This document shows, piece after piece, positions 1-29,738 of a stretch of DNA of 64,000 nucleotides. A program made the translations under genes and the position numbers. Source of the stretch: Streptomyces violaceoruber. Lineage in GTDB: Bacteria > Actinomycetota > Actinomycetes > Streptomycetales > Streptomycetaceae. The stretch covers positions 90,065-154,064 of the forward strand of contig JODI01000009.1 of the NCBI GenBank assembly GCA_000720805.1, in the 5' to 3' direction. Numbering within the stretch: position 1 is the first letter of the stretch; each line of letters starts with the position of its first letter. The notes under the pieces are model-generated. The model saw only the letters and a list, made by a program, of their open reading frames with translations. It was not told where the DNA came from and did not search any database.

Positions 1-511
1 GGTCGAGGCCCGTCGTGGGCTCGTCCAGGAAGAGGACGGACGGCCTCGCCACCAGGCAGGCCGCCAGGTCGAGGCGGCGCCGCATACCGCCCGAGTACGT
101 GCGCGCCGGGCGGTCGGCGGCACCGGTCAGCTCGAACCGGTCGAGCAACTCGGCGGCCCGAGCGCGCGCGGCACCCCGGCCCAGGTGGGTCAACGTGCCG
201 ATGAGGACGAGGTTCTCCCGTCCGGTGAGCATGTCGTCCACCGCCGCGTACTGTCCGGCGAGCCCGATGCGCCGCCGTACCTCGGCCGGTTGACGCACCA
301 CGTCGTAGCCGGCGACCCGGGCCCGGCCGCCGTCCGGTCGGAGCAGGGTCGAGAGCATTCTGACGGTGGTCGTCTTGCCCGCCCCGTTCGGACCGAGCAA
401 GCCGAGCACGGTTCCCGACGGCACCGCCAGGTCGACTCCGCCCAGCGCTTGCCGTCCCTCGTACCGCTTGCACAGGCCCTCGGCCTCGATCGCCCATTCC
501 ACCGTCGCCAC
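1..511 (-). CDS. ABC transporter ATP-binding protein, drug-export type (partial, 3' end outside window)
   Basis: The leftward frame gives a nucleotide-binding domain that couples ATP hydrolysis to export, most like the DrrA/antibiotic-resistance family. Visible motifs are Walker [11 protein letters not shown] near residue 40, the signature [10 protein letters not shown], and Walker [12 protein letters not shown] just before the edge. I chose the GTG at 511 because GGAGGA lies 6 nt upstream; the frame then reads [19 protein letters not shown], a normal N-terminus. It is the last visible gene of the TDO-to-MbtH unit, so export of the cluster product or self-resistance is the natural inference. 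The membrane subunit is expected just to the left. The substrate cannot be told from sequence. Confidence 0.9.
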
Positions 512-544
512 CGCTGCTCCTCCGCCCCGACTCGGCCGGGCTCG

Positions 545-766
545 TCAGGCGGCCGGAGCGTCGGCGGACGGGCCGCGCAGGCTGCGCGGGCGCAGGTCGG
601 TCCAGTGCTCCTCCACATACGCGAGCGCCTTGTCACGCGAGCTCTCGTCGAGGGCCACTGTCCAGCCTGCGGGGCGCTCCGCGAAGGCGGGCCACAGGGA
701 GTGCTGTCCCTCGTCGTTGACCAGCACGAGGAAGGTTCCGGCCGGGTCGTCAAAGGGGTTCGCCAC
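545..766 (-). CDS. MbtH-like protein (NRPS adenylation-domain chaperone)
   Basis: This 73-residue protein belongs to the MbtH family, small partners that bind adenylation domains and are often needed for their solubility or activity. Family marks seen are the N-terminal NPFDDP, the HSLWP segment, PAGWTV and the C-terminal W-x-DLRPRS. The GTG at 766 is chosen because it places NPFDD three residues from the start, as usual, with a GGAG-like site upstream; an in-frame ATG further upstream gives an atypical extension. It lies 142 nt downstream of the stand-alone adenylation gene and may serve that protein as well as the three A domains of the large synthetases. Confidence 0.93.
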
Positions 767-908
767 GTCACACACTCCAGGTCGTGTCGGTTTCGATCGC
801 CGGTGGTCGTCCACCGGACTCATCGAGGATCTCGACCTGCGCTGACGAAACGCTGACTGCTCACTGATGTGCGCAGCGTGCGGCCTGCGGGTGAGCGGCC
901 GCTCCCGT

Positions 909-2459
909 TCAGGCGACGCGCGACCTCGTCGCCGCGACGTCACGCTTGCCGTTGGCGTTCACGACGATCTCCGGCACGGTGTGCACGGCCTCCGGCACCA
1001 GGGCCGAGGGCAGCACCGTCGTGAGCGCGGAGCGGACGGCGTCGGCCAGGCCGTCGGTGCCGCCCGCGGCGACAGGCCGTACGAACAGCTCCAGCGTGTC
1101 GATCGGACCGCGCACGACGTCGAACACCGCGTCGGCGACGCCCGGCACGGACAGCACGTGATGGCGCAGTTCCCCCAGTTCGATCCGGTGACCGTTGACC
1201 TTCAACTGGTCGTCCGCGCGCCCGAGGTAGAGCAGCGTGCCGTCGGGCCGCAGCTCCACCGTGTCGCCCGTGCGGTAGGCACGCCCGGCCGCCCCGCCGA
1301 GCTCGGCCTCGTCGATGAACCGCTCGCCCGACGGTTGCGGGCCCAGGTAGCCGGCCGCGACCGCGCGTCCGGCGATGACCAGTTCGCCCGGGCTGCCCTG
1401 CCCCACCGGACGCAGTTGGTCGTCCACGACGTACGCCCGGGTGTTCCACGCGGGTCGGCCGATCGGCACGGTCGGCGTCGCGGGCAGCGTCGCACGGTCG
1501 AAGGAGAACGCACAGCAGCCGATGGTGGTCTCGGTCGGACCGTAGTGGTTGACGAGCCGAACCCCGTCCAGGCGGTCGCCCAGGGAGGCGATGAGCGCCG
1601 GGTCGAGGCCTTCGCCGCCGAACATCAGCAGCCGCGTCACCCGGTCGTAGCGGGGCGGCTGCGCGAGGACGTCGAAGAAGCGGGCGTGCGAGGGAGTCAT
1701 CTTCACGAACGTGTACTTCTCCGGGCGCTCGCCGAACAGCGTCTTCTGGTCCCACAGCCCGGCGACGGTCACGACGGTGCGGCCCTGCGAGAGCGGCAGC
1801 CACAGCGACGTCATCGCCAGGTCGAAGCCGAGGCTGCCGAACAGGGGGCTGCCGGTCCCCTCGGAGCCCACCAACTCGCCGCACCAGGAGACGTAGTTGG
1901 CGAGCGAGGCGTGCGGCACCCGGACGCCTTTGGGAATGCCGGTCGAGCCGGAGGTGAACACGACGTACGCGATGTCCTCCGGGCCCGGCAGGGTGGCGCT
2001 CCGGTCGGGGGCGTCGACGTCCGGCAGGGCTGCGATGTCGATGAACGGTATGGATCGGGCGGCCACCGCCTCGGTCGCGTCGGGTCCCGAGTGCAGCAGC
2101 GCGGTGGGAGTGGCGCCGGCGAGTACGGCGGCGGTGCGCTCGCCGGGGTGCTCCGGGTCGATGGGCACATAGGCCGCGCCGAGCGCCATCACCGCGAGGG
2201 CTCCCGCGACGGTGTCCGGGGTCCGCGCGGCGATGAGGGCCACCCGGTCCCCCGCGACGACGCCGGCCTCGTCCAGGGCGGCGGCCACGACGAGGGCCCG
2301 TCGCCACAACTCCCGGTAGGTGAGGGCGCCGTGGGCCGACCGCACCGCCACGGCGTCGGGCCGGGCCCGGACGTGCCGTACGACCATGTGGACGACGGAC
2401 GCCTCCGCGACCGCGCGCACCGCGCCGGACACCGAGCTGGGGTGGGGTACATGGACCAT
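909..2459 (-). CDS. stand-alone NRPS adenylation domain, predicted aspartate-activating
   Basis: A 516-residue amino acid adenylation enzyme with no carrier domain. Core motifs run in order: [16 protein letters not shown] (A3), [11 protein letters not shown] (A4), NHYGPTETT (A5), YRTGD (A7), [18 protein letters not shown] (A8) and NANGKRD with the A10 lysine. Aligned by eye to PheA, the ten specificity positions read D-L-T-K-M-G-H-I-G-K, one residue away from the classical Asp code DLTKVGHIGK, so L-Asp is the best guess. The ATG at 2459 has AGGAG 8 nt upstream; an earlier in-frame start adds 39 unconvincing residues. It has no carrier in cis and must load a T domain elsewhere. It sits between the PPTase and MbtH genes. 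Confidence 0.9.
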
Positions 2460-2579
2460 GGCGGGGACTCCTGCGTGCGGACGGGTCAAGGACAGCGGCG
2501 CGGACTTCCGGACGATCGCCAGCGTAGGAACACGCGGCCGCCCGGACCACGCTCTTAAGCCCCCGCCGAAACTCACCGG
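2460..2579 (-). promoter_or_regulatory. probable promoter region of the A-domain/MbtH/ABC unit
   Basis: A 120-nt gap in an otherwise overlapping leftward operon. It contains an A/T-rich core, TTAAGC at 2555-2560 followed by CCCCGCCGAAAC, resembling a motif upstream of the long leftward operon at 29281 (see findings). A Shine-Dalgarno AGGAG precedes the ATG at 2459. No clear -35/-10 pair was found, so promoter function is inferred from position and the shared motif. Confidence 0.35.
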
Positions 2580-3227
2580 TCAGCCGTCGAAGGCGACGGC
2601 CAGGAGAATCCCGTCCCTCGCGAGCCAGCGGCCGGTGAAATCACGCCGGTACGGGGCCAGGACGGCGGCCCGGAAGGTGTGTTCGGTCGGGTCGAACTCC
2701 ACCGACACGTCCCGGAAGGTCAGTTCGGTCCCGGTGTCCGGGAACCACGCCTTGTAGACCGCTTCCTTCGCGCAGAACAACAGCCGGTCCCAGCAGGCGA
2801 GTCGGGAGTACGACGCCTCCAGCGCCGCGAGCCGTTCGCGTTCCCCGGGTAGCGAGACCGTGCCGAGAACACCCTCGCTCAACGGGCGCCAGGGCTCCGC
2901 GTCCACGCCCAGTGCGCGCACGTCGTACTGCCGCGCCACGACGGCAGCCCGGTATCCCCGGCAGTGCGTCATGCTCCCCACCACGCCCTCGGGCCAGCGC
3001 GGCACCCCCCGCACGTCCGGTATCAGGGGCACGGGGACGTGGCCGAGCTCGGACAGGGCGCGGCGGGCGCAGTGCCGGACCGTGGTGAACTCGCGGCGTC
3101 GCCCCTCGCTCACCCCGGCGACCGCCGCCCGCTCCTCGGGGTACAGGGCGTCGTCCGCCGCGTCGGAGCGGGCCTCGGCCCCGGCGACGTAGGACGGCAA
3201 CAGCCGCTCGATCAACGACCGTTGCAC
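2580..3227 (-). CDS. 4'-phosphopantetheinyl transferase, Sfp/EntD type
   Basis: A 215-residue enzyme that transfers phosphopantetheine from CoA to the serine of carrier domains, activating the T/ACP domains of this cluster. Diagnostic motifs are GVDAEPW (Mg-binding Asp and Glu) and FCAKEAVYKAW (the WxxKEAxxK family motif), preceded by VGSMTHCRGYRA, the SxTH segment of EntD-like enzymes. The length is typical. The GTG at 3227 overlaps the end of the upstream formamidase gene by 16 nt, indicating translational coupling; no strong Shine-Dalgarno is seen. A dedicated PPTase inside the cluster fits the number of carriers: four in the synthetases plus the free ACP. Confidence 0.93.
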   Translation of the reverse strand: MQRSLIERLLPSYVAGAEARSDAADDALYPEERAAVAGVSEGRRREFTTVRHCARRALSELGHVPVPLIPDVRGVPRWPEGVVGSMTHCRGYRAAVVARQYDVRALGVDAEPWRPLSEGVLGTVSLPGERERLAALEASYSRLACWDRLLFCAKEAVYKAWFPDTGTELTFRDVSVEFDPTEHTFRAAVLAPYRRDFTGRWLARDGILLAVAFDG

Positions 3228-4063
3228 AGGATGCCCAGCACCGCGGCGCCCAGCACGGTGTCCGGGTCCGCGAGGTCGAAGGGCAGGTCGAAGTGGTGGC
3301 GTCCGGGTACGACGAGATCGGTCACCTCGGTGCCGCCCTCTCGGGCGGCACCGACGAACTGGTGGTGCTGGGCGGTGAACGCATCCGTCTCGTCCTCGCC
3401 CAGGGCGACGACGAGCCGGGGCAGCCGCGTGGGCATGCGGTGCAGCGGGCTGCAGTCGCGGGCCTCGTCGGCGTCCATGCCGAGGGCGTCGTTGACGTAG
3501 GTGTGCCGCAGGGGCTCCAGGTCGTAGACACCACTGATCAGCGTCGCGGAGGTGATCGTTCCGGAGGCGTGAAGGCCGTCGGCGTCGAGGAGTGCGCTCA
3601 CGACGAGGTGGGCCCCGGCGGAGTGACCGCCGAGGTGAACGGCCTGGGGTGCTATGGGCAGGGGGGACCGGCCGGTGCAGATGCGGCGCAGTGAGTCGCT
3701 GACGGCCGCGGTGATGGCACGCAGGCTGTGGCGTGGGGCCAGGCCGTAGCCGAGCGCTGCGAAGGAGATGCCGGCGGCCAGGAAGTCGCGTGCGGCGAAG
3801 GCTGCTTCGGACTTGCTGAGCTCCTGCCAGTAGCCACCGTGCACGAACACGAACAGCGGGGCGTGCGGGTCGGGCGCCGGAAACAGGTCGAGCCGCTGCT
3901 CGGGCAGGGGGCCGCAGGGGACGTCCAGGTGGACGGGGAGATCGGCGCGGGCGCGGGCGCTGTCAGTTGCGTACCGCGCGAGGTGGACGTCGAGGTCGGT
4001 GACGCGCGAGCTGGGCGAGTACTCCCGGTCGAGGCCGGTGCGCGCCGTGTCGGGCGCGGTCAC
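3212..4063 (-). CDS. kynurenine formamidase-like alpha/beta hydrolase
   Basis: A 283-residue alpha/beta hydrolase. The oxyanion-hole motif HGGYW near residue 110, the nucleophile segment GGHSAGAHL and a C-terminal GRHHFDLPF (catalytic His) match the KynB/arylformamidase group that hydrolyses N-formylkynurenine to kynurenine and formate. The GTG start at 4063 overlaps the TDO stop as GTGA. That coupling, and TDO making exactly this substrate, is the main support for the specific function; from sequence alone it could be another carboxylesterase. In the same frame the open reading frame extends upstream, but that stretch is antisense-frame noise over the TDO gene. Confidence 0.82.
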   Translation of the reverse strand: MTAPDTARTGLDREYSPSSRVTDLDVHLARYATDSARARADLPVHLDVPCGPLPEQRLDLFPAPDPHAPLFVFVHGGYWQELSKSEAAFAARDFLAAGISFAALGYGLAPRHSLRAITAAVSDSLRRICTGRSPLPIAPQAVHLGGHSAGAHLVVSALLDADGLHASGTITSATLISGVYDLEPLRHTYVNDALGMDADEARDCSPLHRMPTRLPRLVVALGEDETDAFTAQHHQFVGAAREGGTEVTDLVVPGRHHFDLPFDLADPDTVLGAAVLGILCNGR

Positions 4064-4752
4064 GGCAGTGGGGTCCAGACCTCGGGCAGCATCCGGCGCA
4101 GGGCGGCACGCCACAGATAACCGGCGCCCTCGGATCCCGCGGTGCCCACGGCCGTGCCGAGGAAGCGCTCGGCAAGCACGGCGTGCCGGGCTCGCCAGAC
4201 GGCCGCGGCGTCGTCGAACTCGAGGAGGGCGAGCCGCACCCGCTCGGCGGCCGCCCGGTCCGCGCACGTGTCGACGAAGTGCCGGTAGGCCTCTGTCACC
4301 GTCCGTTCCGCGAGCCGCGCTTCGAGCCGGGCGCGGTCTTCCTCGGTGAAGCCGCCCGTCGTCAGGTAGCGGGAGTCGCGCAGGCCGCAGAGGAACTCGA
4401 TCTCTCGGAACTGCGCGGACTGGAAACCGCTGGCGTCGCCCAGGGCGGCCCTGATGCCCTCGAACGCGGCCGGGGTCAACGTCGCGAGCCCGTCGAAGTG
4501 CCGGGTCAGCGTGGCCATCAGCCGCGGCAACGGGGCCGCCCTGCGCACGGCCTTGTCCGCGTCGCCCGTGTCCAGGGCCGCGCGTATCTCCTCCAGATGG
4601 CGCAGGGCGACGGCGAAGAGGATCTCGCAGGACTGGTGTGTGGCCAGGAAGAGGACGTGGTCCACATCGTCGTCGTGGACACGGGCGGTCCGCAACAGCT
4701 CGTCGAGCCGAAGCACTTGGCCGTAGGGCGGGGCGGCGGTCTCGGCAATCAC
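4060..4752 (-). CDS. tryptophan 2,3-dioxygenase
   Basis: A heme enzyme that oxidises L-tryptophan to N-formylkynurenine. Family marks are PPYGQVLRLDELL at the N-terminus, the distal-His segment FLATHQSCEILF, GFQSAQFREIEFL for substrate binding, and the C-terminal W-RARHAVLAERFLG with the heme-ligand His followed by GTAGSEGAGYL. At 230 residues from the GTG at 4752 (GAAGG 5 nt upstream) it is shorter than many family members (about 260-280), but all key blocks are present. It begins the leftward unit with the formamidase, giving Trp to kynurenine. No kynureninase or kynurenine 3-monooxygenase is visible, so kynurenine itself is a likely building block (inference). Confidence 0.9.
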   Translation of the reverse strand: MIAETAAPPYGQVLRLDELLRTARVHDDDVDHVLFLATHQSCEILFAVALRHLEEIRAALDTGDADKAVRRAAPLPRLMATLTRHFDGLATLTPAAFEGIRAALGDASGFQSAQFREIEFLCGLRDSRYLTTGGFTEEDRARLEARLAERTVTEAYRHFVDTCADRAAAERVRLALLEFDDAAAVWRARHAVLAERFLGTAVGTAGSEGAGYLWRAALRRMLPEVWTPLP

Positions 4753-5001: not shown

Positions 5002-5190
5002 ATGAATCTGCTTTCCTCCGGCATTCAGCTGAATGCCGACGGCGCCGTTCCCGCCCGCCCGGCCCGGTCCGCCCTCGTGATCGAGGAGCTCGACTCGGTG
5101 GCGGACCACATGGTCGCGCTCTCCACGTTCTGCATCCAGGCCGAGAGCGCTGTCCCGGCCGCGCGGGGGGCTTGGCGGCTCGGCGCGTGA
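5002..5190 (+). CDS. putative ribosomal precursor peptide for the adjacent azoline cyclodehydratase
   Basis: A 62-residue peptide with GGGA 6 nt before its ATG; its TGA overlaps the cyclodehydratase GTG as GTGA, so the two are coupled. The N-terminal half, with LVIEELDSVADHMVAL, is acidic and leader-like. The C-terminal half contains STFCIQAES, one Cys plus nearby Ser/Thr that could be cyclised, and ends AARGAWRLGA with a single Trp. It has only one Cys, no Cys/Ser-rich core and no obvious cleavage site, so it does not match a thiopeptide or goadsporin precursor I know. A substrate or scaffold role is inferred from position and size. Confidence 0.6.
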   Translation: MNLLSSGIQLNADGAVPARPARSALVIEELDSVADHMVALSTFCIQAESAVPAARGAWRLGA

Positions 5191-7568
5191 CCCCTTCCGA
5201 CGTACGGAAGGACGGGGCCCCCGTGCTCGCTGCGGGCGACCGAGTCCTGGTGGGTTTCAAGAGCCACCTCCGCCCCACGGTCCTGCCGGACGACGCGACG
5301 TACCTGGTGTCGCGCCGCGGCGTCACGGCACTGCACGGTCACCCGGCGGAGGTCCTGGTGCCGCTCCTGGACGGTACGCGCAGCCCGCATGCCGTGCTGC
5401 GCGAGGCCGCCCCAGCGCTCGGCATCGAGGACGCCGAGGCGGCGCTGCGTGCCCTGGACGGTGCGGGTCTGCTGCGGTTCGACGTCCCCGAACCGCCGCA
5501 CACGGACCCGGCCGCCGAGGCGTACTGGGACCTGATCGGCCTGGACGGTGGCCGAGCCGCGGCCACCGTCGCGGGCGCCACCGTCGCGGTCGAGGCGCTG
5601 CCCGGAGTGGCGGCGGATCCCGTGGCGCTGGCCTGTCGCGCCGAGGGGATCACCATCTCCCCGCCCGGCACCGACGCCGACCTGTCCCTCGTCCTGTGCG
5701 ACGACTATCTGTCACCCCAACTCGCCGCGGTGGACGCGGCACACCGCGCCGCAGGGAAGCCCTGGCTGCTCGCGAAGCTGTGCGGGGCGGACCCGTGGGT
5801 CGGTCCGGTGTTCCAACCGGACAACGGCCCCTGCTGGCACTGCCTTTCCGTACGGCTGCGCGGGCACCGCCACTCGGAGGTGCCGGTGCAGCGGGCCCTC
5901 GGGCTCGACGGGCCGCTCCCTCGCCCCGTCGCGTCCCTGGCCGCAGGACGCTCTCTCGCCATCGGCATCGCCGTCCTGGAGACGACGAAGTGGCTGGCCG
6001 GGGTGCGCGATCCGGAGCAGGGCCACATCCGCACGATGGACACGGTCCGTCTGCACACCGCCTCGCACCCGGTGAGCCGACGCCCGCAGTGTCCCGAGTG
6101 CGGGGACGCGGATCTGGTGGCCCGGCGGGTGCACGCCCCGTTCCGGCCGGCAACACGACTCAAGGCCGTCCTCGTCGGCGGCGGCCACCGGGCGCTGACG
6201 GCACAGCAGATGCTCCGCACGTACGGTCATCTGGTGAATCCGGTGACCGGTGTCGTGAAGGAGATCAGGCAGGCGCCTGGCTGCCCGGACTTCGTCACCT
6301 CCTACGTCTCCGGTCACAACCTGGCGATGGGGCCCGCGACGCTCGCCGGACTGCGCTCCGGACTGCGCGCGCTCAGCGGCGGCAAGGGCCTGAACGAGAC
6401 GGAGGCCCGCGCCAGCGCCCTGTGCGAGGCGGTGGAGCGTTACAGCGGAACCCGGCACGGTGACGAGCCGGTGGTACGGGACTCCTACCGCGGCCTCGGC
6501 TCAGCGGCCGTGCACCCGAACGACTGCCAGCTGTACGCGGACCGGCAGTACGCCCAGCGGGAGCTCTGGAACGCGACCCACTCCCGGTTCCAGCACGTCA
6601 GCGCACCCTTCGACGAGACACTGCCCACCGACTGGACCCCCGTCTGGTCCCTGACCCACAACACCCGGCGCCTGTTGCCCACTTCGATGCTGTACTTCGC
6701 GGGCACGGGAACGGGCACGAGCACGGGAACGGGAACGGGAACGGGAACGGGAACACGGACGGGGCCGGCGACCGGCGTCGAGAACAACCACGACGGCCTG
6801 TGGGCCGACTCGAACGGCAACGCCGCCGGCAGCAGCCCCGAGGACGCCCTCCTGCAGGGCTTCCTCGAACTGGTCGAGCGGGACGCGGTCGCCCTGTGGT
6901 GGTACAATCGCACCCGCCAGCCCTCGGTGGACCTGGACGCCTTCGACGAGTCCTACGTGGAGCGGCTGCGCCACGGATACCGGAGCGTCCACCGGGAGAT
7001 CTGGGTCCTCGACCTGACCTCGGACTTGGGGATCCCCGTCATGGTGGCGCTCTCCCGCCGCCTCGACAAGCCGGCCCAGGACGTCATCTTCGGTTTCGGC
7101 GCCCACTTCGACCCGCGGACGGCGCTGCGGCGCGCGCTCACCGAGATGGGGCAACTGCTTCCCGCGGTGTCCGACGTCCTGCCCGACGGGTCCGGGTACC
7201 GGATCGACGATCCCGAGCCGACGCGCTGGTGGCGGCACGCAACGGTCGCCAACCAGCCCTATCTGAGGCCGGATCCGCAGGTGGCGCCGCGCGGCCCCGA
7301 CCACTGGCCGACCCCGCACCGTCCCGACCTCCTCGACGACGTGCACGCGATCACCGAGCTGGCCCGCGCCACCGGTCTGGAACTCCTGGTCCTCGACCAG
7401 CAGCGTCCCGACCTGGGCCTGCCCGTGGTGAAGGTGATCGTGCCGGGCCTGCGGCACTTCTGGGCCCGGTTCGCGCCCGGCCGCCTGTTCGACGTCCCGG
7501 TGGCGCTCGGTCGTCTCCAGGAGCCGACCACGTACGAGAAGCTGAACCCGACACCACTCTTCGTCTGA
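5187..7568 (+). CDS. fused azoline cyclodehydratase (leader-binding/E1-like domain + YcaO domain)
   Basis: A 793-residue fusion of the two TOMM cyclodehydratase halves. The N-terminal part holds a winged-helix-like leader-recognition segment, an E1-like domain and two CxxC pairs (CWHC near residue 218, CPEC near 306) likely to bind zinc. The C-terminal half is a YcaO ATP-dependent domain: SGGKGLNETEARASALCEAVERYSG, the acidic segment ending FLELVERDA, and a Pro-containing tail NPTPLFV. The enzyme should turn Cys/Ser/Thr of a peptide into azolines. No FMN dehydrogenase for azole formation is nearby. A TG-repeat insert sits inside the YcaO domain near residues 505-523. The GTG at 5187 is chosen for its overlap with the peptide gene. 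Confidence 0.88.
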   Translation: MTPSDVRKDGAPVLAAGDRVLVGFKSHLRPTVLPDDATYLVSRRGVTALHGHPAEVLVPLLDGTRSPHAVLREAAPALGIEDAEAALRALDGAGLLRFDVPEPPHTDPAAEAYWDLIGLDGGRAAATVAGATVAVEALPGVAADPVALACRAEGITISPPGTDADLSLVLCDDYLSPQLAAVDAAHRAAGKPWLLAKLCGADPWVGPVFQPDNGPCWHCLSVRLRGHRHSEVPVQRALGLDGPLPRPVASLAAGRSLAIGIAVLETTKWLAGVRDPEQGHIRTMDTVRLHTASHPVSRRPQCPECGDADLVARRVHAPFRPATRLKAVLVGGGHRALTAQQMLRTYGHLVNPVTGVVKEIRQAPGCPDFVTSYVSGHNLAMGPATLAGLRSGLRALSGGKGLNETEARASALCEAVERYSGTRHGDEPVVRDSYRGLGSAAVHPNDCQLYADRQYAQRELWNATHSRFQHVSAPFDETLPTDWTPVWSLTHNTRRLLPTSMLYFAGTGTGTSTGTGTGTGTGTRTGPATGVENNHDGLWADSNGNAAGSSPEDALLQGFLELVERDAVALWWYNRTRQPSVDLDAFDESYVERLRHGYRSVHREIWVLDLTSDLGIPVMVALSRRLDKPAQDVIFGFGAHFDPRTALRRALTEMGQLLPAVSDVLPDGSGYRIDDPEPTRWWRHATVANQPYLRPDPQVAPRGPDHWPTPHRPDLLDDVHAITELARATGLELLVLDQQRPDLGLPVVKVIVPGLRHFWARFAPGRLFDVPVALGRLQEPTTYEKLNPTPLFV
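6701..6754 (+). repeat. hexanucleotide microsatellite (GGGAAC-type) inside the YcaO gene
   Basis: Nine consecutive 6-nt units, five of them perfect GGGAAC (6725-6754), preceded by GGGCAC/GGGAAC/GGGCAC/GAGCAC variants. In frame it encodes alternating Thr-Gly. Because the unit is a multiple of three, copy-number change would lengthen a surface loop rather than shift the frame. Confidence 0.92.
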
Positions 7569-7593
7569 CAGCGGCGGAACATCCTCACGGCCG

Positions 7594-7636
7594 CCGAAGG
7601 TCCCGTACCCGCTACTGCCGGGCACGGGACCTTCGG
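7594..7636. terminator. bidirectional intrinsic terminator between convergent cyclodehydratase and NRPS units
   Basis: Perfect 13-bp inverted repeat, CCGAAGGTCCCGT (7594-7606) and ACGGGACCTTCGG (7624-7636), with further CCCG/CGGG pairing in the loop. It lies 25 nt after the YcaO stop and beyond the end of the NRPS on the other strand, where transcription from both sides must stop. No long T-run follows, as is common in Streptomyces. Confidence 0.85.
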
Positions 7637-7889: not shown

Positions 7890-7895
7890 CAGCCG

Positions 7896-16984: not shown

Positions 16985-17924
16985 GGCCGGTTCCTCCCCG
17001 CGCGGCGAGGTGCTGTGGCGCGTACTGGTAGAAGCCACTGCCCGACTTGCGTCCCACCTTGCCTTCGGCGACGAGACGGGCCAGCAGGGGGCAGGGCCGG
17101 AAGCGGTCCTCGCCGGTGTGCCGGCGCAGCACCTCCAGCGAGTCGGCGATGGTGTCGAGACCGATGAGGTCGGCCGTGCGCAACGGCCCCATGGGGTGCC
17201 CGAAGCAGTCCTGGAAAACGCGGTCCACGGTCTCGGCGTCGGCGGTTCCCTCGCCCAGCACGGCGGCCGCCTCGTTGAGCGTCAGCATCAGTACCCGGTT
17301 CGTCACGAAGCCGGGGGCGTCACGCACCACGAGGGCGTGTTTTCCGACGCGGGTGAGGAAGCCTTCCGTGCGCTCCAGGGTGAGATCGCTGGTCTCCGGC
17401 GCGCGGATGACCTCCACCGCGTCCTTGAGCGGCGCCGGGTTCATGAAGTGGGTGCCGATGACCCGGTCGGGGCGGCCGGTGAAGGACCCGAGACGACTGA
17501 CCGGGATGCATGAGGTGTTGGACGCGAAGATCGCCTCGGGCCCGCAGATCCGGTCCAGCTCGCGAAGGATCCGCTCCTTGGTGTCCTCGTCCTCCCGGGC
17601 GCACTCCACCACCAGGAGAGCGGCCGCCATGTCGGCGAGCTCGGCGGACCAGGTCACGAGGGACTCGGCGCGGGCTGCGGGCGTGCCCGCCCGTGCCTGC
17701 CGCGACCCTCTGCGCAGCAGCGTGGCCGTCCTGATCCCGGCGTGGAGCCGGGCCGGTCCGGAGGCCAGCGCCCCGGGGTCGTTGTCGACGACGACCACGG
17801 GGTGGCCGGCTTCGGCGAAGCACTGCGCCACACCGATCCCCATCGTGCCCGCGCCGACGATGCCCACCAGTGACCCGGCCGGAACGGCCCGCGCGGTCTG
17901 TTGAACGTCTGTCTGATCGCCCAC
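16977..17924 (-). CDS. 3-hydroxyacyl-CoA dehydrogenase-family enzyme (FkbK-like, hydroxymalonyl-ACP pathway)
   Basis: A 315-residue NAD-dependent dehydrogenase. The N-terminal Rossmann fold has [15 protein letters not shown]; catalytic residues lie in [28 protein letters not shown] (His and Glu) and [11 protein letters not shown]. In methoxymalonyl-ACP pathways the FkbK/Asm13 type oxidises ACP-bound glyceryl to the semialdehyde, and the cluster has the matching FkbH, acyl-CoA dehydrogenase and ACP genes, which supports that role over fatty-acid degradation. The GTG at 17924 has AGGAG about 10 nt upstream. It sits between the PKS and the terminal NRPS, apart from the other three pathway genes, but on the same strand and closely spaced. 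Confidence 0.85.
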
Positions 17925-17956
17925 TGTTTCAGGTCTCCTTCGTCGGCCGAGCCGCG

Positions 17957-23239: not shown

Positions 23240-23261
23240 GTCACCTCTCCGTTCACGCCGG

Positions 23262-25157
23262 TCAGAGCTCGTATGTGGCCGGTGGGGCGTATTTCTCGCC
23301 CAGCGCGGGTTCGCCCAGGCGGTCGGCGATGCGCTGCGCCTGGGTGGCGATGGTGATGCAGTCGAACAGCTCGCCCACCCGCAGCGCCTCGGGCCATCGC
23401 TTGTCCAACCTGTCGTGCAGGTCGATGACCTTCATCGAACTCCCGCCGACGGCGAAGAAGTTGTCGTCCGGGCCCGAGCCGGAGTGCCCGAGGACCTCCG
23501 CCCAGATCCGTGCGACGGCGAGCCGGTGCCCGCTCCAGTCCCCGCCCGCGGTGCCGCCCGGGGCCTGCTGGTGAGTCGGGATCAGCCTGCGGAGCGCGGC
23601 CCGGTCCGCCTTGGTGCTGCGGTCGAGCGGCATGTGGTCGACCGGTATGAACAGGGCCGGTGTGGCCTGCTCCACCAGTCGGCCCCGACAGTGTTCGCGC
23701 AGCTTCGACGCGTCCGGCGGCCCGCTGCCGGGTGTCGGCAGTACGAAGGCGATCACCTGCGGCTCATCCTGCCCGGCACGTTCGCAGAGCACCACGGCCT
23801 GCTCCACGCCCGGATGGCGTTCCAGCACGCTCGCGATCTCGCCGAGTTCGATCCTCGTACCGCGGATCTTGGCCTGGTCGTCCGTTCTGCCGTGGTAGTG
23901 CAGCGCGCCCCGCTCGTCGACGCCGGCGATGTCCCCGGTGCGGTAGAGGCGCCCGCCCGGCCGCCCGTACGGGTCCGCGATGAATCGCTCGGCCGTCCGG
24001 GCCGGCTGGTTCGCGTAGCCGATGGCCACCAGGGAGCCGCCGACGTAGAGCTCGCCCCGCTCACCGGCCGGGACTTCACGCAACCGCTCGTCCAGTACCA
24101 GGGTCCGCACTCCCGGCCAGGGCCGCCCGATGGGGACACGGTCCCGGGCCGGGTCCGGATCGGTCTCCACCGTGCAGGCGATGGTCGTCTCGGTGGGCCC
24201 GTACTCGTTGACGATCGGCGTCCGTGGCAGTCGCTCGTGGTGTGCGCCCACCAGTTGGGGGGTGCACACCTCACCCCCCACGACCACCAGACGCAGCGTG
24301 TCCGGCAGGCCACCGGGATCCTGGAGCACCGCCCGGTAGTAGGAGGGAATGTTGAACAGGTGTGTCACACGGTGTTCCCTGGCCAGCCGGACGAACTCCG
24401 CCACTCGCACGAGCTGTCGGGGATCGGGCAGCACCAGCGTGTGACCGCCGGTGAGCGACCAGAACATTCCGCCGAGAATTCCGTCGAAGGACAGCCGCAA
24501 CGCGATCAGGAAGACAGAGTGCTCGGTGCCGTACACCGGCCCCCGGCAGTTGATGGACGCCGCGAGCTGGCCCCGGCTGACCAGCACGCCTTTCGGCACA
24601 CCGGTGGACCCCGAGGTGTAGGCCACGTAGGCGGGGCTCTGCTCCGGGACCGGTGGGTACGGGTCGGTGGGCAGCTCCTGGCCCGCCTCGACGAGTCGCG
24701 TCAGCGGGAGGTCCGCCGCGTCCACGACCGTCGGCGGCGCGGGCATCGCCGCGAGCGCGGAAACCGGTACGGCGTCGCCACCCTCGCTCAGCACCACCGC
24801 GCAGTCGACATCCCGGCACAGCGCCTCGAACCTCCCCACGGGCAGGTCCGGTTCCAGGACCGCCCAGGTGGCACCGGTGCGCAGTGCGGCGAGCATGGCC
24901 ACCACGGACAGGGCGCTCTGCTGCGTCCGGACACAGACGACCCGTCCCGGCCGCAGACCGTGCTGCCACAGCAGCCGCGCGAGACCGGCCGTGGCGTGGT
25001 CGAGCTCGCGGTAGGTCAACGAGACCCCGCCGATGACGAGCGCGGTCGCCTCGGGCGTCGCGACCACCTGGCTTCGGAAGGCGGCCCAAACGGGCCGTAC
25101 CTCCGACGGGGTCTGCGCGGGAACGAATGCACCGGTGCCACCGGGATGCCGGGTCAT
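23262..25157 (-). CDS. NRPS A-T didomain, possible loading module
   Basis: A 631-residue protein with an A domain (about 25-520) and T domain (Ser in FFAVGGSSMKV near 570), but no C domain and no TE. Motifs include YTSGSTGVPKG near 178, NEYGPTETT and YRTGD; the A10 lysine is in STKADR rather than the usual NGK. Specificity positions by eye are D-G-G-F-V-G-E-I-A-K, unlike codes I remember; Asp235 is kept, so an alpha-amino acid is likely. With no C domain and a position just upstream of the KS gene, a starter role feeding the KS is the simplest reading. The ATG at 25157 overlaps the FkbH-like stop as ATGA. Confidence 0.9.
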   Translation of the reverse strand: MTRHPGGTGAFVPAQTPSEVRPVWAAFRSQVVATPEATALVIGGVSLTYRELDHATAGLARLLWQHGLRPGRVVCVRTQQSALSVVAMLAALRTGATWAVLEPDLPVGRFEALCRDVDCAVVLSEGGDAVPVSALAAMPAPPTVVDAADLPLTRLVEAGQELPTDPYPPVPEQSPAYVAYTSGSTGVPKGVLVSRGQLAASINCRGPVYGTEHSVFLIALRLSFDGILGGMFWSLTGGHTLVLPDPRQLVRVAEFVRLAREHRVTHLFNIPSYYRAVLQDPGGLPDTLRLVVVGGEVCTPQLVGAHHERLPRTPIVNEYGPTETTIACTVETDPDPARDRVPIGRPWPGVRTLVLDERLREVPAGERGELYVGGSLVAIGYANQPARTAERFIADPYGRPGGRLYRTGDIAGVDERGALHYHGRTDDQAKIRGTRIELGEIASVLERHPGVEQAVVLCERAGQDEPQVIAFVLPTPGSGPPDASKLREHCRGRLVEQATPALFIPVDHMPLDRSTKADRAALRRLIPTHQQAPGGTAGGDWSGHRLAVARIWAEVLGHSGSGPDDNFFAVGGSSMKVIDLHDRLDKRWPEALRVGELFDCITIATQAQRIADRLGEPALGEKYAPPATYEL

Positions 25158-26230
25158 GGCAGCCTCGCTTCCTGTGCGGGTCGTGCCGCACCGACGATCA
25201 CGCGTGTGTGGCCGGGGGCCTTGGGCAGCGGGCGCTCCGGGTCCACGGCAAGCACGAGGCGGTCCCCGTCGGTGGCCGTCGCCTCGTAGCCGGCGAAGCG
25301 CATGGTGACCAGCAGATTCCGGTTGGCCTCGGTCAGGGTGAAGTGCGCGACAGGGCGTCGGCCGTCCGCCAGGGCCTGCTGGACCAGATGGTGCAGCAGC
25401 ACGCTTCCGGCACCGCGCGAGGCGACCCGGCAGGACATCAGCATCAGCCGCAGGACCGAGTCCCGCCCGACGAGTTCGGTGACGGACAGGCCGATGATCC
25501 CGTAGTCACCGAAGCGGTCCCGGAGCGTGGCCAGCCGCACCTGGTGATCCGGGGAAGCGCTCAACCGGCGCAGTTCGTCGATGCCGTAGGTCAACCCCGT
25601 GCTGTTGAGCTGATGAGTGCGGACGGTCAGCTCGCTCGCCCGGGACAGGTCCTCCTCGGTGGCCGGGCGCAGTTCCATGACGAGGCCGAGCGAGTCGAGG
25701 AACGCCTGACGCCCTTCGGCGAACTCCTCTTCGGCCTCCCGGCGTTGCCACTCGGCCTGGTAGAGCCGGCGTCGCCCGGTGGCCTCCGCGGTGATGCGCT
25801 CGGGGCGGAAGTCCCGGAACTGCGGCAGCTGTCCGACCTCCGCCGCCGGGTAGCAGCGGACCATGGGGAGTTCGCTTTCGACCTCCGCCCGCTCCACCGG
25901 GTCGTTGTCGACGAACGCGATGGTGTCCAGACCGATGTTGAGGGCCTGCGCGATCCGGCGCACCGCAGCCGACTTGGCGCCCCAGCCCACCTGCACCGCG
26001 CAGAACCAGTCGGCCAGCCGGCGCTCCGTCAGATGACGTTGGGTGACACTGCGTTCGCCACGGCCGGCGGCGGCATGCAGGATGCCGCGACGGTCCAGCT
26101 CGGCCAGGGTCTCCAGCGCCACGGGGAAGGGCGCGGGATCATCGCCCTCCAGCACCACTCCGTTCCACAGAGTGTCGTCCAGGTCCCACACGAGGCACTT
26201 GACGGTGGGAGCGCCCGTTGCCGCCGTCAC
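25154..26230 (-). CDS. FkbH-like HAD/GNAT enzyme (glyceryl-ACP formation)
   Basis: A 358-residue protein of the FkbH family, which dephosphorylates 1,3-bisphosphoglycerate and loads the glyceryl group onto an ACP. The N-terminal HAD domain shows LVWDLDDTLWNGV and IAFVDNDPVERAEV. The C-terminal half is the GNAT-like part, with THQLNSTGLTY and SCRVASRGAGSVLL. Length is typical. The GTG at 26230 overlaps the acyl-CoA dehydrogenase stop as GTGA, and its own stop overlaps the A-T gene. Some FkbH homologues feed tetronate formation with a KSIII; here the extra acyl-CoA and hydroxyacyl dehydrogenases favour hydroxymalonyl-ACP. Confidence 0.9.
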   Translation of the reverse strand: MTAATGAPTVKCLVWDLDDTLWNGVVLEGDDPAPFPVALETLAELDRRGILHAAAGRGERSVTQRHLTERRLADWFCAVQVGWGAKSAAVRRIAQALNIGLDTIAFVDNDPVERAEVESELPMVRCYPAAEVGQLPQFRDFRPERITAEATGRRRLYQAEWQRREAEEEFAEGRQAFLDSLGLVMELRPATEEDLSRASELTVRTHQLNSTGLTYGIDELRRLSASPDHQVRLATLRDRFGDYGIIGLSVTELVGRDSVLRLMLMSCRVASRGAGSVLLHHLVQQALADGRRPVAHFTLTEANRNLLVTMRFAGYEATATDGDRLVLAVDPERPLPKAPGHTRVIVGAARPAQEARLP

Positions 26231-27456
26231 GACGCGCCTTCGGGAAGACGGGGCCCGACGGGGCGGTCCCTGCCGTGCGCGGCATCGCCGAAGCGACGTA
26301 ACAACCGTTCGGCTATGTGAAGTTCGGACACTTGCTGTGCTCCTTCGATGATCTCCATGACCTTGGCGTCCCGGAAGTGACGGCCCGCCCTGCTGTCGGG
26401 CGCGCAGCCGGCCGAGCCGAGTACTTGGACGGCGTCGCGGCTTGCCGTCGCCGCCGCGGAAGCCGCCGCGTACTTGGCCATGAGCGTCTCGGGCACCCCG
26501 TGCCCAGGGCCCGAAGCCCGTGCCTCCGCGGCCCTGCGGGCGAGCTCGCGGGCCCCGGCGGCGTCCACCGCTGCTCTGGCCAGCAGCGAACGGACCAACT
26601 GGTGGTCGCCCAGGGGGGTGTCGCCCTGTCGGCGGACCGCTGCGTGGGTGGCGGCATCCTCGACGCACGCCTCCGCCATGCCCACGCATCCCCAGGCGAC
26701 CGTGAAGCGGCCGTGGTCGAGCGCGGTCCCGATGACATGGGAGAGACCCAGACCGGGAGGGGCGATCAGCTGACGCCGGGGCACCCTGACGCCGTCGAAG
26801 GACAGATGGGCGATCCGGGCGGCCCGCATGCCGAGTTGGCCGTTCACCGGCTCCCGCTCGACACCGGCACGGTCCGCGTCCACGAGCACGGCGGCCGGCC
26901 TTCCCTCGTACTTGCCGAGCACCAGGAACACGTCGGCGACCGCGCCGTAGGTGATCCACCTCTTGTGGCCGCTCACGACCAGTTCCTGACGGTCCGACCG
27001 GCCCGACGCCTCGATACGGGTCTCCACCGAGCCCAGCGCGCTGCCGGCGGCCCGCTCGGTCGCCGCGAAGCCGGCGGTCAGCTCGCCGCCGGCCAGCCGG
27101 GGCAGCCAGTCGTCCCGCTGCTCCGCCGTTCCCCACCGCAGCACCGCCGCCGCGACCATGCCCTGTACGGTCAGCAGCCCGCGCAGGGCGCTGCACTCAC
27201 CGCCGATCCGCGCGGTGATCTCCCCGAGCGTGAGTGGATCGAGGCCCGCACCCCCGTATCGCTCGGGAAGGTCAGCGGCGAGCAGTCCCGACCCGGCGAA
27301 CTCCTCACGCACCGAATCGGGCAGTCCGCCGTCCTGGTCCCAACGGGAGGCGCAGGCACGTGCGTTGGCCGCCAGGTCGTCCGCCACCCTGGACAAGGCC
27401 AGGGGCGGCGACTTTGCCGTGGCGGCGTCGGAGCCGCTGTCAGGCACCCTCGGCAT
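26227..27456 (-). CDS. acyl-CoA dehydrogenase-family protein (FkbI-like)
   Basis: A 409-residue flavoprotein with acyl-CoA dehydrogenase marks: ADLPERYGGAGLDPL, GFAATERAAGS, HKRWITYG and a C-terminal AVQVLGSAGCAPDSRAGRHF followed by MEIIEGAQQV. In methoxymalonyl clusters the FkbI/Asm16 protein oxidises the ACP-bound aldehyde stage to the malonyl oxidation level. The ATG at 27456 is chosen for GGGAG 7 nt upstream; it overlaps the ACP stop by 17 nt. Catalytic-base assignment by eye is uncertain. Its place between ACP and FkbH-like genes supports the assigned pathway. Confidence 0.87.
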   Translation of the reverse strand: MPRVPDSGSDAATAKSPPLALSRVADDLAANARACASRWDQDGGLPDSVREEFAGSGLLAADLPERYGGAGLDPLTLGEITARIGGECSALRGLLTVQGMVAAAVLRWGTAEQRDDWLPRLAGGELTAGFAATERAAGSALGSVETRIEASGRSDRQELVVSGHKRWITYGAVADVFLVLGKYEGRPAAVLVDADRAGVEREPVNGQLGMRAARIAHLSFDGVRVPRRQLIAPPGLGLSHVIGTALDHGRFTVAWGCVGMAEACVEDAATHAAVRRQGDTPLGDHQLVRSLLARAAVDAAGARELARRAAEARASGPGHGVPETLMAKYAAASAAATASRDAVQVLGSAGCAPDSRAGRHFRDAKVMEIIEGAQQVSELHIAERLLRRFGDAAHGRDRPVGPRLPEGAS

Positions 27457-27712
27457 GCGCCACTCCCCGGTCGGGCGCATCGGTCTTGCGCCGGACGAAC
27501 TCCGTGATGCGGTGGGCGGTCCTGAAGCTGTCCAGATCCAGGTCCTCGACCTCGACGGTGAGGGCGAAGCGGCTCTCGACGAAGGTCACCAGCTCCAGCG
27601 CGAACAGTGAGTCGGCGAGGCCCTGAGCGAAGTAGTCGTCGTCCGGCTCGACCTGCCGTCGAAGCGCCGCGCTCAGAAAGTCGGTGATCTGCTCGGTGAT
27701 GTTGTCGTTCAT
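27440..27712 (-). CDS. discrete acyl carrier protein (FkbJ-like)
   Basis: A 90-residue ACP. The phosphopantetheine site is LADSLFALELVTFVE (Ser in DSL), followed by a helix typical of small carriers. The ATG at 27712 has GGAGGA upstream and overlaps the KSIII-like stop as ATGA. It is the likely carrier on which the C3 unit is built by the FkbH-like, dehydrogenase and acyl-CoA dehydrogenase enzymes before transfer to the AT-defective PKS module. The C-terminal tail RRKTDAPDRGVAHAEGA is hydrophilic and probably disordered. Confidence 0.92.
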   Translation of the reverse strand: MNDNITEQITDFLSAALRRQVEPDDDYFAQGLADSLFALELVTFVESRFALTVEVEDLDLDSFRTAHRITEFVRRKTDAPDRGVAHAEGA

Positions 27713-28722
27713 GCCACGTCCTCCTGTGGACCTGTCTCGACCAGCAGCAGACTCCAGGCGGCCACCGGGCTGACGTTGATCAGGACCGCGAGGTCACCAG
27801 GGGCCAGTTCCTCGCGGTCGAGTGCGGTGCGGAGATTGAGGAAGACATCGTTGGGACCGAGGTGTCCGTACTTCCGCAGGTTCTGCCGGCACGCCGGCAG
27901 CAGTTCGAGGTCCAGGGAGTCCTCGAGGAAGGTGAAACTCCCGGCGGACAGGTTCTGGCTGACGAAACCGCCGACGTCCCCGCGGCCGATTCCGTTGCGC
28001 CGCAGCAAGTCGTCCAGCATCGAGGAGAGGCGGTTGCGCGTCTCCATGGCCAGGCGGAAGGAGTAGGTGCTGGGCTCCGTGCACTGTTCGCGCCACTGAG
28101 CGGTGGGGCGGTCCCGGTAGTCGACGTGGAAGAGGTCCCAGTAGCGCCCGTCGGTCAGCTGCGCGATGTCACGTATCCGTATCCGCCCGCTGCGGGAGAG
28201 CAGCAACGCCTGCCCGCCGTCGCCGTTCACCGTGACGGGGTGGCGGTAGCGCAGGGCGGCGGCCGGCTTGCTGCCATGCACGACCAGGACGTCGTCCAGG
28301 GCAGGGTCCGCGGCCAGCATTCCGCGGGCCGTCAGCAAAGCCGGGGAGATCGAGACACAGCCGAGCCCGCCCACCGAGAAGGTGAGGGCGTTGTCGGCGC
28401 CGAGCCGCTGCTGGAGCTGAGTCACCTCGGAGCTGAGGAACGTCTCCTGGACCCGCGACTCCACCATCACCAGGGCGCCCAGGTCCCGGGCGTCAAGCCC
28501 CGCCTGTTCGAGGGCCCGGCGCGCGGCGCGCTCCGCGAGAGTGACAGAACTCAGCCGGTCGTCGGCCCGGATCGTGTCGATGCCCAGAGCGTCGCGGGTG
28601 GCGCGCTCGGTCTCGTCGAGCGTCCGTACATCGGTGATCGGCAGAGTGTGCTCGGGCAGATACCAGGCGGCGCTGCGGATGGCGACGGGTGCTGCGCCGT
28701 ACTGGAGGGCCTGCTGGGGCAC
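27709..28722 (-). CDS. ketoacyl-ACP synthase III-like enzyme, possibly an acyltransferase
   Basis: A 337-residue thiolase-fold protein of the KSIII/FabH superfamily. The nucleophile Cys lies in SVGGLGCVSISPAL. The region where FabH has its PHQAN motif reads GGFVSQNLSAGSF, with no His, and the C-terminal Asn block reads LINVSPVAAWSL. It may therefore not perform normal decarboxylative condensation; KSIII homologues such as CerJ act as acyltransferases. Here it could move the hydroxymalonyl unit from the free ACP to the PKS carrier, replacing the dead AT (inference). The GTG at 28722 (GAGGGA upstream) gives a normal N-terminus, AIRSAAWYLPEHTLP; an in-frame ATG at 29139 would add 139 odd residues. 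Confidence 0.8.
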   Translation of the reverse strand: MPQQALQYGAAPVAIRSAAWYLPEHTLPITDVRTLDETERATRDALGIDTIRADDRLSSVTLAERAARRALEQAGLDARDLGALVMVESRVQETFLSSEVTQLQQRLGADNALTFSVGGLGCVSISPALLTARGMLAADPALDDVLVVHGSKPAAALRYRHPVTVNGDGGQALLLSRSGRIRIRDIAQLTDGRYWDLFHVDYRDRPTAQWREQCTEPSTYSFRLAMETRNRLSSMLDDLLRRNGIGRGDVGGFVSQNLSAGSFTFLEDSLDLELLPACRQNLRKYGHLGPNDVFLNLRTALDREELAPGDLAVLINVSPVAAWSLLLVETGPQEDVA

Positions 28723-29738
28723 GGTCGTTCCCTCTCGTCCGAGGCAGGATGGCCGGCCGAACGCCGCGGCCAGGACGTCGGCGCCCGCCTGCCGGTGCGG
28801 CGGGGCAACCGGCACGTGCGGCACGGCTCCCGACAGGGGCCACCGCGGTCTCCGGGCCGGCCGGCGGACTCGTGCCCGCCGCGACCTGCTGCCGCGTCCC
28901 CGGAGCACCGAGGGGCAGCCCGTACTGGTTCGGACCGGCACACGGACCGCGGAGTACTCGGCGCACTCGAACTGGCCCCTGCGCACGGAGGACGCGGCTC
29001 CCGCCGTGCTCCCAGGGCCGCCCGGAGGGCCGCTCCGGCCTCCTCCGCGCCCAGTGTGCCGCCGTGATCGGGGCTGCCCCATCGGCGCTCGATCACCCAG
29101 GGGCGGGCCCGTCGTACCGGCCTGTTTCTGTTCGGACATGCTCTTGCCTCCGTGCTGGTGCGACCTGCGCATCGGGAAGACCGGACGCCTGCTGGTGGGG
29201 CCACATGCTCGAGAACGAGAACGAGAGTCGAATGCCCTCGGTCCTCAGCCTGCCGTCGGGGCCGTATGGCCGCCATGTCTTTAAGCGGGCGGCAAATACG
29301 CTAGGTGGCCGGGCATGTTCGCGGGCACGGAGGAGCCGCGGGTGCCGTGCGCGGGAGCGCTCCCCAACTGCCGCGCCTCGCCTGCCACGCGCCACTCACG
29401 AAGAGCAACTCCTTGGCAATGGGGCGCGGTCCGCCCTGACGATGCCGGTCTCGACGTCATGGGTGCGGGTCCAGCAGCCACCCATCGCGGGGGCAGCGGG
29501 GAGCCGGTCGTCCGGCAGTGTCCGGACGAGCGCCTCGCGGATGAGCGGCCCGATCGCCCGGCTGCGCCGGCTGGTCCGGTTCTTCCTGGCCAAAACAGCA
29601 GGTGGACATCTGTCACCCGGTAGCGGCGATCCTCCGACGGACGCAGTGATACCGGCAGCTCCGCAAGGCCAAATCAAACGTGGGCGGACTGCCGCCCCGC
29701 CCTCGAAGCCGCCGTCGAGGCGGCACGGGAACGACGAA
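28723..29738. other. long leader/intergenic region upstream of the main biosynthetic operon
   Basis: About 1 kb between the KSIII-like start and the ychF terminator. A minus-strand ATG at 29139 has a strong site (GGAGG, 7 nt spacing) and begins MSEQKQAGTTGPPLG, in frame with the KSIII-like gene, but beyond some 15 codons the translation is Arg/Pro/Gly-rich and unconvincing; another frame (VIERRWGSPDHGGTLGAEEA) also looks partly coding. It may be a leader ORF, a decayed gene or noise. TTAAGC at 29281-29286 is the likely promoter-proximal element. No other gene is supported between 29300 and 29738. Confidence 0.4.

Follow-up and report, generated by a model that had tools for sequence, protein, structure and literature searches.

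The NRPS lipopeptide cluster of taromycin pairs a tryptophan halogenase with a tryptophan 2,3-dioxygenase (TDO), and the assembly lines of taromycin and gausemycin build long cyclic lipopeptides. The gausemycin cluster, also of an NRPS lipopeptide, carries its halogenase and TDO as ORF9 and ORF10, according to part of the published account (PMC12471526). In zwittermicin biosynthesis an ACP-bound hydroxymalonyl extender feeds an NRPS-PKS line, where ZmaA has an active acyltransferase (AT; motif GYSFG) that recognises hydroxymalonyl-ACP, as sections of PMC4207774 describe. ChlB3 (chlorothricin) and CerJ (cervimycin) are KSIII-fold enzymes, of which CerJ transfers malonyl and ChlB3 places an acyl group on an ACP; passages of PMC9573744 have them acting on sugars or starter ACPs and give the ChlB3 triad as Cys113, His296 and Asp301. 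Among YcaO enzymes, the cyanobactin-type TruD, LynD and MusD fuse leader binding to cyclodehydration. A cyclodehydratase has also been proposed within the NRPS-PKS clusters of conglobatin (CongE) and oxazolomycin (OzmP), and passages of PMC4504003 class both as ATP pyrophosphohydrolases of the N type, with no relation to YcaO.

Here we describe a locus that resembles several of these systems, in a window of 64,000 nucleotides (the whole stretch analysed) from a Streptomyces genome assigned to the species S. cellulosae (G000). Its first 29 kb had been predicted to hold either one pathway joining an azoline peptide to an NRPS-PKS chain or two neighbouring pathways. Every element named in the original prediction is found in the sequence, and the stretch is the meeting point of three gene sets, A, B and C, and not one pathway. 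We consider it probable that the whole is best explained by this junction, by an inversion that produced it and by loading of g37, whose AT is dead, by the KSIII-like protein g42. The features are as follows (positions in the window).

-436..511, minus strand: ABC transporter ATPase g26, set A (start at 511, end outside the window)
545..766, minus strand: MbtH-like protein g27, set A
909..2459, minus strand: stand-alone adenylation enzyme g28, set A
2580..3227, minus strand: phosphopantetheinyl transferase g29, set A
3212..4063, minus strand: kynurenine-formamidase-like hydrolase g30, set A
4060..4752, minus strand: tryptophan 2,3-dioxygenase-like protein g31, set A
5002..5190, plus strand: 62-aa precursor-like ORF g32, set B (by synteny)
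5223..7568, plus strand: fused leader-binding and YcaO cyclodehydratase g33, set B
7896..12659, minus strand: NRPS C-A-T-C g34, set C
12656..16984, minus strand: NRPS C-A-T-TE g35, set C
16977..17924, minus strand: 3-hydroxyacyl-CoA dehydrogenase (HCDH) g36 of the hydroxymalonyl cassette
17957..23239, minus strand: PKS-NRPS KS-(vestigial AT)-T-C-C g37, set C
20945..21802, minus strand: vestigial AT region of g37 (residues 480-765 as modelled)
23262..25067, minus strand: A-T protein g38, which would begin the line
25154..26230, minus strand: FkbH-like protein g39
26227..27447, minus strand: acyl-CoA dehydrogenase g40
27440..27712, minus strand: discrete ACP g41
27709..28722, minus strand: FabH/KSIII-like protein g42, proposed acyltransferase acting in trans on g37

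In a comparison of two strains from the species, dN/dS is at most 0.67 in 30 of the 31 genes g12-g42, so that these genes are more than chance ORFs. No product of this cluster was found among the matches listed in searches of mostly open-access papers.

Two assembly lines, sets A and C

Set A is the right end of a cluster of about 50 kb that lies mostly to the left of the window, where a three-module NRPS, g12, is encoded together with tryptophan genes, type II acyl genes and a tryptophan halogenase; g12 is read as approximately C-A-T-E-C-A-T-C-(A)-T-TE, with E from a weak match. The nearest PDB entry to the halogenase g20 is 5lv9 (1057 bits), followed by the tryptophan 6-halogenase 5hy5 (928 bits). 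Together with a flavin reductase, TDO and formamidase this makes the halo-kynurenine gene set complete, if g30 is what we take it to be: its assignment as the formamidase follows from position and motifs, and its best NCBIfam match, a lipase model, is below cut-off. The TDO g31 passes the Pfam cut-off (108.3 bits against 34.9) and falls below that of the NCBIfam TDO model (139.7 against 390.7). Set A shares the combination of halogenase and TDO with an NRPS with gausemycin and taromycin, and differs from them in the three modules of g12 and the type II acyl genes beside it.

In the proposed pathway tryptophan would be made and halogenated within the cluster, TDO and formamidase would open halo-tryptophan to halo-kynurenine, and module 2 of g12 would build this into the acylated peptide that we predict as the product. 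Nine pocket residues of this module are identical in G000 and in the related genome G199, both of which have a cluster TDO, while a different set is common to G295-G298, four genomes without a cluster TDO whose only TDO matches (30-34% identity) lie on other contigs. The pocket positions, anchored on GrsA, served for comparing genomes only, and no substrate is named from them. The predicted kynurenine supply stands; it is best assigned to module 2 of g12, outside the window, rather than to the listed NRPS-PKS proteins. We also propose that g28 serves in trans the third A domain of g12, which is degenerate; an exception is G297, which has the degenerate domain and no g28 at the cut-off.

Set C carries the genes of a hydroxymalonyl-ACP cassette (FkbH, ACP, acyl-CoA dehydrogenase and HCDH); as predicted, no O-methyltransferase is found among the Pfam matches of window proteins g26-g42. 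The A-T protein g38 would start the line, the cassette would make hydroxymalonyl-ACP, g42 would collect the hydroxymalonyl unit from ACP g41 and pass it via Cys122 to the g37 T domain, the KS of g37 would extend the aminoacyl chain by this unit and the NRPS proteins would then finish the chain. This resembles the hydroxymalonyl-ACP supply of the zwittermicin line; unlike ZmaA, g37 has a vestigial AT without a GYSFG-type motif. The longer g34 and g35 of G021 and G280 suggested that set C had been truncated by the YcaO junction, an idea rejected on finding the same short g34 in G295-G298 with no YcaO beside it.

Sets A and C may act together, and 'separate' may be too strong a word for them. Both are present in 6/6 short-C genomes examined (G000, G177 and G295-G298), and to this extent the predicted union in one cluster survives, though not for the YcaO set B. 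They adjoin in G295 and G296, and in G036 their homologues sit in one cluster, where halogenase, tryptophan genes, KSIII, KS and NRPS genes follow one another in a single run and the 80 kb read contain one TE. In G000, G296 and G295 the short set C lacks an MbtH gene of its own, and the long one of G021 and G280 has such a gene (called by length and a blast match to g27). These observations favour a reading in which A and C yield a single molecule, or two acting together, the halogenated acyl-tripeptide of g12 being joined to the NRPS-PKS product through the unpaired end C domains of g37 and g34. Against it stand the TE in A and the TE in short C, the different contigs of A and C in G298, and genomes that have one set without the other: G199 carries f34-f47 and g12-g31 in the same order (56-90% identity), followed by YcaO, and has no g34-g42, and the stretches read in G021 and G280 hold set C without matches to g20-g33 apart from ABC and MbtH genes. 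We give this reading a little less than an even chance.

A vestigial acyltransferase and a KSIII-like protein

Judged from its sequence, the AT of g37 is dead and shrunken, and the same appears to hold across its family. Neither this dead AT nor the likely role of the FabH-like gene was part of the prediction. GHSxG is absent from 50/50 KS proteins seen in 60 loci with a FabH-like (KSIII) gene, a count that looked for GHSxG only; GYSxG was not seen at the corresponding place in the KS-protein alignment. The gap from KS to T is 186-391 aa in the 48 KS proteins where a T domain was seen, and PF00698 matches 0/51 members scanned, the window's protein being entered as its KS only. The KS Cys-His-His is invariant (51/51). 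Foldseek gave no match to the vestigial AT at E 0.001 or better (best 5.8e-3), and the 50 VIA-align matches listed are PKS or FAS entries. As in trans-AT PKSs, then, the KS module is without an active cis AT, but no discrete FabD-like AT (PF00698) for the cluster lies on contig C9; the three PF00698 places in the genome are on C6, C12 and C25.

The protein g42 has a Cys-His-Asp triad within a KSIII fold, as expected of a KSIII-type acyltransferase. Its cysteine (C122) is kept in 61/61 family members, and its histidine and aspartate (H287 and D292) in 60/60 with sequence there. The best Foldseek match of its model is ChlB3 (E 1.1e-23), with which, as with CerJ, it shares fold, triad and His-x4-Asp spacing at about 21% identity; unlike either, it accompanies a type I KS-T module whose AT is dead. 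We propose that g42 loads the extender unit in trans onto g37. More broadly, there is in our judgement an even chance that in one lineage of NRPS-PKS modules from actinobacteria a KSIII-type acyltransferase has taken the place of the cis AT: the AT would persist as a shrunken, dead scaffold, and the FabH-like protein would carry malonyl-type extenders, here hydroxymalonyl, from an ACP to the T domain. A KSIII in the role of extender-unit loader is not described among the matches listed in searches of the open-access literature.

That the KSIII follows the dead AT and not the hydroxymalonyl genes is indicated by 12/50 KS loci in which no homologue of g36, g39, g40 or g41 lies within the locus of about 21 kb, and the hydroxymalonyl genes were rejected on this ground as the reason for the KSIII. 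Locus L117 has, of the hydroxymalonyl genes, the ACP alone.

Alternatively, g42 could make an ester or prime a starter, with FabD or another enzyme loading g37, which is how CerJ and ChlB3 would lead one to read it, given the sugars and starter ACPs reported in passages of PMC9573744. No KS was evident in 10/60 KSIII loci. When the ten genomes concerned were searched with KS plus AT remnant, five of them gave six KS places between them and the remaining five gave none at 1e-100; at L131 and L137, two loci of these last five, the KSIII stands beside NRPS genes with no KS, so that a different role for the family is possible. In G000 there is also a further AT-less KS-T on contig C64, and g42 is the genome's only KSIII match of the family at 1e-30; such a module can thus be loaded by something else, FabD perhaps. 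Against a starter or ester role stand the AT-dead KS proteins of the KSIII loci (50/50) and the KSIII kept in the 12 loci without hydroxymalonyl genes; we hold it to be possible, at somewhat under even odds.

Set B and its place beside set C

On sequence grounds set B is a separate RiPP locus of predicted azoline type, common in the genus. The fused architecture of g33 is that of TruD, LynD and MusD, its three best PDB matches; set B differs from these in the LVIExL-like stretch of its precursor ORFs and in the kinase and response-regulator genes close by in most loci. A role for the YcaO as an in-line cyclodehydratase like CongE was ruled out, since CongE belongs to another family. We hold g32 to be real because a short syntenic ORF precedes the YcaO gene in 17/19 loci, with an LVIExL-like stretch in 15 of the 17; g32 has no match among the Pfam and NCBIfam models, and its 3 non-synonymous and 0 synonymous changes between two strains are too few to judge.

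Fused YcaO relatives occur in 82/295 genomes of the genus and the FabH-like marker of set C in 18/295; the two share a genome in 8 cases, against 5.0 expected by chance, and are located together only in the two genomes of the S. cellulosae species. Set C is present without YcaO in at least six species (G021, G280, G295, G296, G297 and G299), and in G298 YcaO is on another contig. The YcaO and NRPS-PKS sets thus each occur without the other across the genus, and the predicted alternative of neighbouring pathways proves the better one.

A histidine kinase of one family is present in 17/18 sampled YcaO loci of other species. The homologue here (63%) is found beyond A as seen from YcaO, at C9:38294-39535, in a block with the response regulator, f27 and SARP that is inverted relative to G199. 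In G295 and G296, g34 is followed by the tryptophan genes of A, with no YcaO there, and the orientation of A relative to C is opposite to that in G000. An inversion of about 58 kb has apparently split B from its kinase, response regulator and SARP and placed it next to C, with borders put near C9:39.5 kb and C9:97.7 kb, a case built on synteny from few genomes. With so few genomes, the adjacency of YcaO and C might instead reflect an insertion of C or a move of the kinase block; at the left inversion end four genes, f30-f33, for which the inversion does not account, lie between kinase and A in G000. The opposite orientations of A and C and the inverted position of the kinase block beyond A make it unlikely.

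A single pathway for all three sets, coupling a YcaO azoline peptide to the NRPS-PKS chain, is very improbable despite the close packing of the genes and the adjacency of A and B in two species (G000/G177 and G199), since G295-G297 and G299 have C with no YcaO match, G213 has part of A (TDO, formamidase and g28-g24) with no YcaO match, in other species B comes with a kinase and a regulator of its own, and B lies beside C in a single species only.

Implications

The inversion by which we explain the meeting of B and C makes this locus a warning that a hybrid RiPP-NRPS-PKS cluster called from a single window can be an inversion junction. It further provides a natural pair for comparison, NRPS modules whose cluster has a TDO and NRPS modules whose cluster lacks one. 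If g42 does act as proposed, a FabH-type extender loader would be a solution different from cis ATs and FabD-like trans ATs, and a family of 345 proteins (E <= 1e-20) would thereby gain a function; among the 120 of 345 matches listed, the names, where present, are generic, such as 3-oxoacyl-ACP synthase.

Cluster borders and the halogenated-tryptophan genes

A codon-usage script supplied the gene calls, and the proteins were identified by Pfam, NCBIfam and PDB sequence searches; negative coordinates lie left of the window, and a position on contig C9 is the window coordinate plus 90064. By these means every unit listed in the original prediction was found in the window. The genome (G000) comprises 10.5 Mb in 350 contigs, and the window, C9:90065-154064, ends where C9 ends. 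Core genes, ychF, xseA, glpX and fumarases among them, occupy the window beyond 29.8 kb (10 proteins there were scanned in one search), and because they start there the cluster's right border falls at about 28.7-29.8 kb. On the left the border is well outside the window. Set A (g12-g31 and f34-f47), a halogenated-tryptophan peptide cluster, extends in that direction.

Features of set A on contig C9, left of the window
Class II DAHP synthase, chorismate-binding and glutamine-amidotransferase proteins
TrpD-type and TrpC-type enzymes
TauD-type and P450-type oxygenases; thioesterase
NRPS g12, 3767 aa
Two KS-like proteins, ACP, SDR and DsbA-like protein
SARP and LysR regulators
Tryptophan halogenase g20, flavin reductase and ABC transporter

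Within the window set A goes on with the MbtH, A, PPTase, formamidase and TDO genes. The solved structures closest to g20 are 5lv9 (1057 bits), a thermophilic Trp halogenase, and 5hy5 (928 bits), a Trp-6-halogenase. For the gausemycin cluster it is proposed that chlorokynurenine arises via a halogenase and a TDO, both of which set A shares with that cluster (PMC12471526). At loci L089 and L090 a TDO-like gene adjoins a halogenase with 71-72% identity to g20. TDO-like genes 62-63% identical to the TDO g31 also lie in stretches without a halogenase match (L086, L087 and L088, in G156, G037 and G271), where they may put kynurenine to a different use. In S. shenzhenensis (G295, contig C2, about 14300-18900) set A holds a second ACP/HCDH/ACDH/KSIII-like group, its g42-like member at 34% identity and its g36-like member at 46%, as though set A there had its own unusual extender unit.

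The YcaO pair and its neighbours

The fused YcaO cyclodehydratase g33, which forms set B with the precursor ORF g32, matches TruD, LynD and MusD in the PDB sequence search and is the sole YcaO protein in the genome. Its relatives at E <= 1e-30 occur in 82 of 295 genomes of the genus, a count that includes G000 and G177, a second strain of the species. A short ORF stands upstream of the fusion in 17 of the 19 loci examined (L031, L033-L050), and 15 of these 17 ORFs have in common, as judged by eye, an LVIExL-like stretch. The kinase family (by Pfam) is found near YcaO in 17 of 18 other-species loci, the response-regulator family in 15. Near the fusion at L049 (G038) there are three similar 52-55-aa ORFs in tandem, possibly multiple precursor peptides.

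Genome G199 carries the entire set A, order kept, at 56-90% identity, and lacks g34-g42; its order runs A, precursor, YcaO, kinase, regulator, f27, SARP. In G000 the kinase, at 63% identity to its G199 counterpart, lies with the response regulator, f27 (208 aa) and SARP f26 at C9:35977-39535, inverted and on the far side of set A. Set against the G199 order, this displaced block points to an inverted stretch of about 58 kb holding set A and the YcaO pair. Such an event would have turned the end of A that faced set C (the NRPS-PKS genes g34-g42) away, YcaO taking its place beside C. This fits the gene order in G295 and G296, where set A genes f38/f40-f44 directly follow g34, the place that YcaO has in the window, and where the orientation of A relative to C is opposite to that in G000. 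The inversion does not account for f30-f33 at the left end of the stretch. These genes (G000:C9:39715-44790), which separate set A from the displaced kinase block, are another regulator/kinase pair, an MMPL-like gene of transporter size, and f33. Within set A of G295/G296 there are homologues of f32 and f33 at 59-71%.

The order g42-g34 is kept in G021 and G280, where the set C NRPS genes g35 and g34 are longer, an MbtH-size gene matching g27 accompanies set C, and no YcaO was found. The short form occurs in G295, S. adelaidensis (G296), S. piniterrae (G297) and Streptomyces sp. cf386 (G298), with g34 identity of 90-93% and one TAA inside the G298 match. No YcaO match was obtained in G295, G296, G297 and G299, and a single one in G298, on another contig; G213 has the TDO end of set A and no YcaO match anywhere in its genome. 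The YcaO part of the union originally predicted as one cluster is a positional accident. Sets A and C were both found in all six short-C genomes examined, adjoining in G295 and G296. In G297 the parts read put them about 60 kb apart, and in G298 they lie on separate contigs; they may yield one joint product or two co-inherited products. Between the two strains of the species dN/dS is at most 0.67 in 30 of the 31 genes g12-g42 (YcaO 0.14, g42 0.19, g37 0.26, g34 0.28), and by this measure none of the three sets looks decayed, leaving aside the precursor ORF, which has too few changes to judge.

Predicted substrates of the NRPS g12

Set A is present in G295-G298 in the parts read, and no TDO close to g31 was found there, the best matches having 30-34% identity and lying on other contigs. 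The nine pocket positions of g12 module 2, placed via assumed anchor positions, are D-A-F-A-V-T-G-V-G in G000 and G199, and G295, G296, G297 and G298 have D-A-W-G-A-A-G-V-S there. The simplest reading is that the module would take halo-kynurenine in the former and halo-tryptophan in the latter. Compared with G295 and G298, the genomes G000, G199, G296 and G297 have a third g12 A domain shorter by about 180-280 residues. The stand-alone A protein g28 was found in G000, G177, G199, G213 and G296, with no match at 1e-120 in G295, G297 and G298; from this distribution and the short domain, g28 is probably the trans-acting partner of that module, G297 being the exception.

KSIII-like proteins and dead acyltransferases

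The FabH/KSIII-like protein g42 is the proposed trans acyltransferase for g37, a KS-vestigial AT-T-C-C protein. Cys122, His287 and Asp292 are invariant among family members with sequence at those positions; FabH's other His, at what we take to be its place in the alignment, is not conserved. The predicted model of g42 (mean pLDDT 90.5) has ChlB3 as its top structural match, with FabH-type and related enzymes next and CerJ at rank 43. Since ChlB3 and FabH-type enzymes score nearly equally, the modelled fold alone cannot choose between acyltransferase and condensing enzyme, and the triad is more informative. In PMC9573744 the ChlB3 triad is Cys113-His296-Asp301, and CerJ, which moves malonyl, has the same active site.

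Of 60 loci with a g42 relative, a KS protein was seen in 50, all of them AT-dead; 12 of these 50 retain KSIII without homologues of the hydroxymalonyl genes. No KS was seen at the other ten, several of which are short contigs. When those ten genomes were searched for KS with an AT remnant, five of them yielded six KS places in all, with G[HY]SxG absent from the sequence available at each, and the other five had no KS match at 1e-100. At L131 and L137 homologues of g42 adjoin NRPS genes with no KS seen, and a second role of this family is possible. The 21-kb locus L109 (S. cacaoi) has KSIII, ACDH, FkbH and HCDH genes and no NRPS or KS; its genome has a KS without G[HY]SxG on another contig (L179).

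Two other modular KS proteins of G000 have GHSMG ATs, and on contig C64 (L183:4804-10293) an A-T protein is followed by a KS-T-reductase protein without an AT; no second g42 relative was found in this genome at 1e-30. Judged from the KSIII loci and from G000 itself, KSIII appears to accompany AT-dead modules, yet not all AT-less modules have one, the C64 protein being a case in point. Dead ATs paired with a KSIII-type acyltransferase merit experiment.
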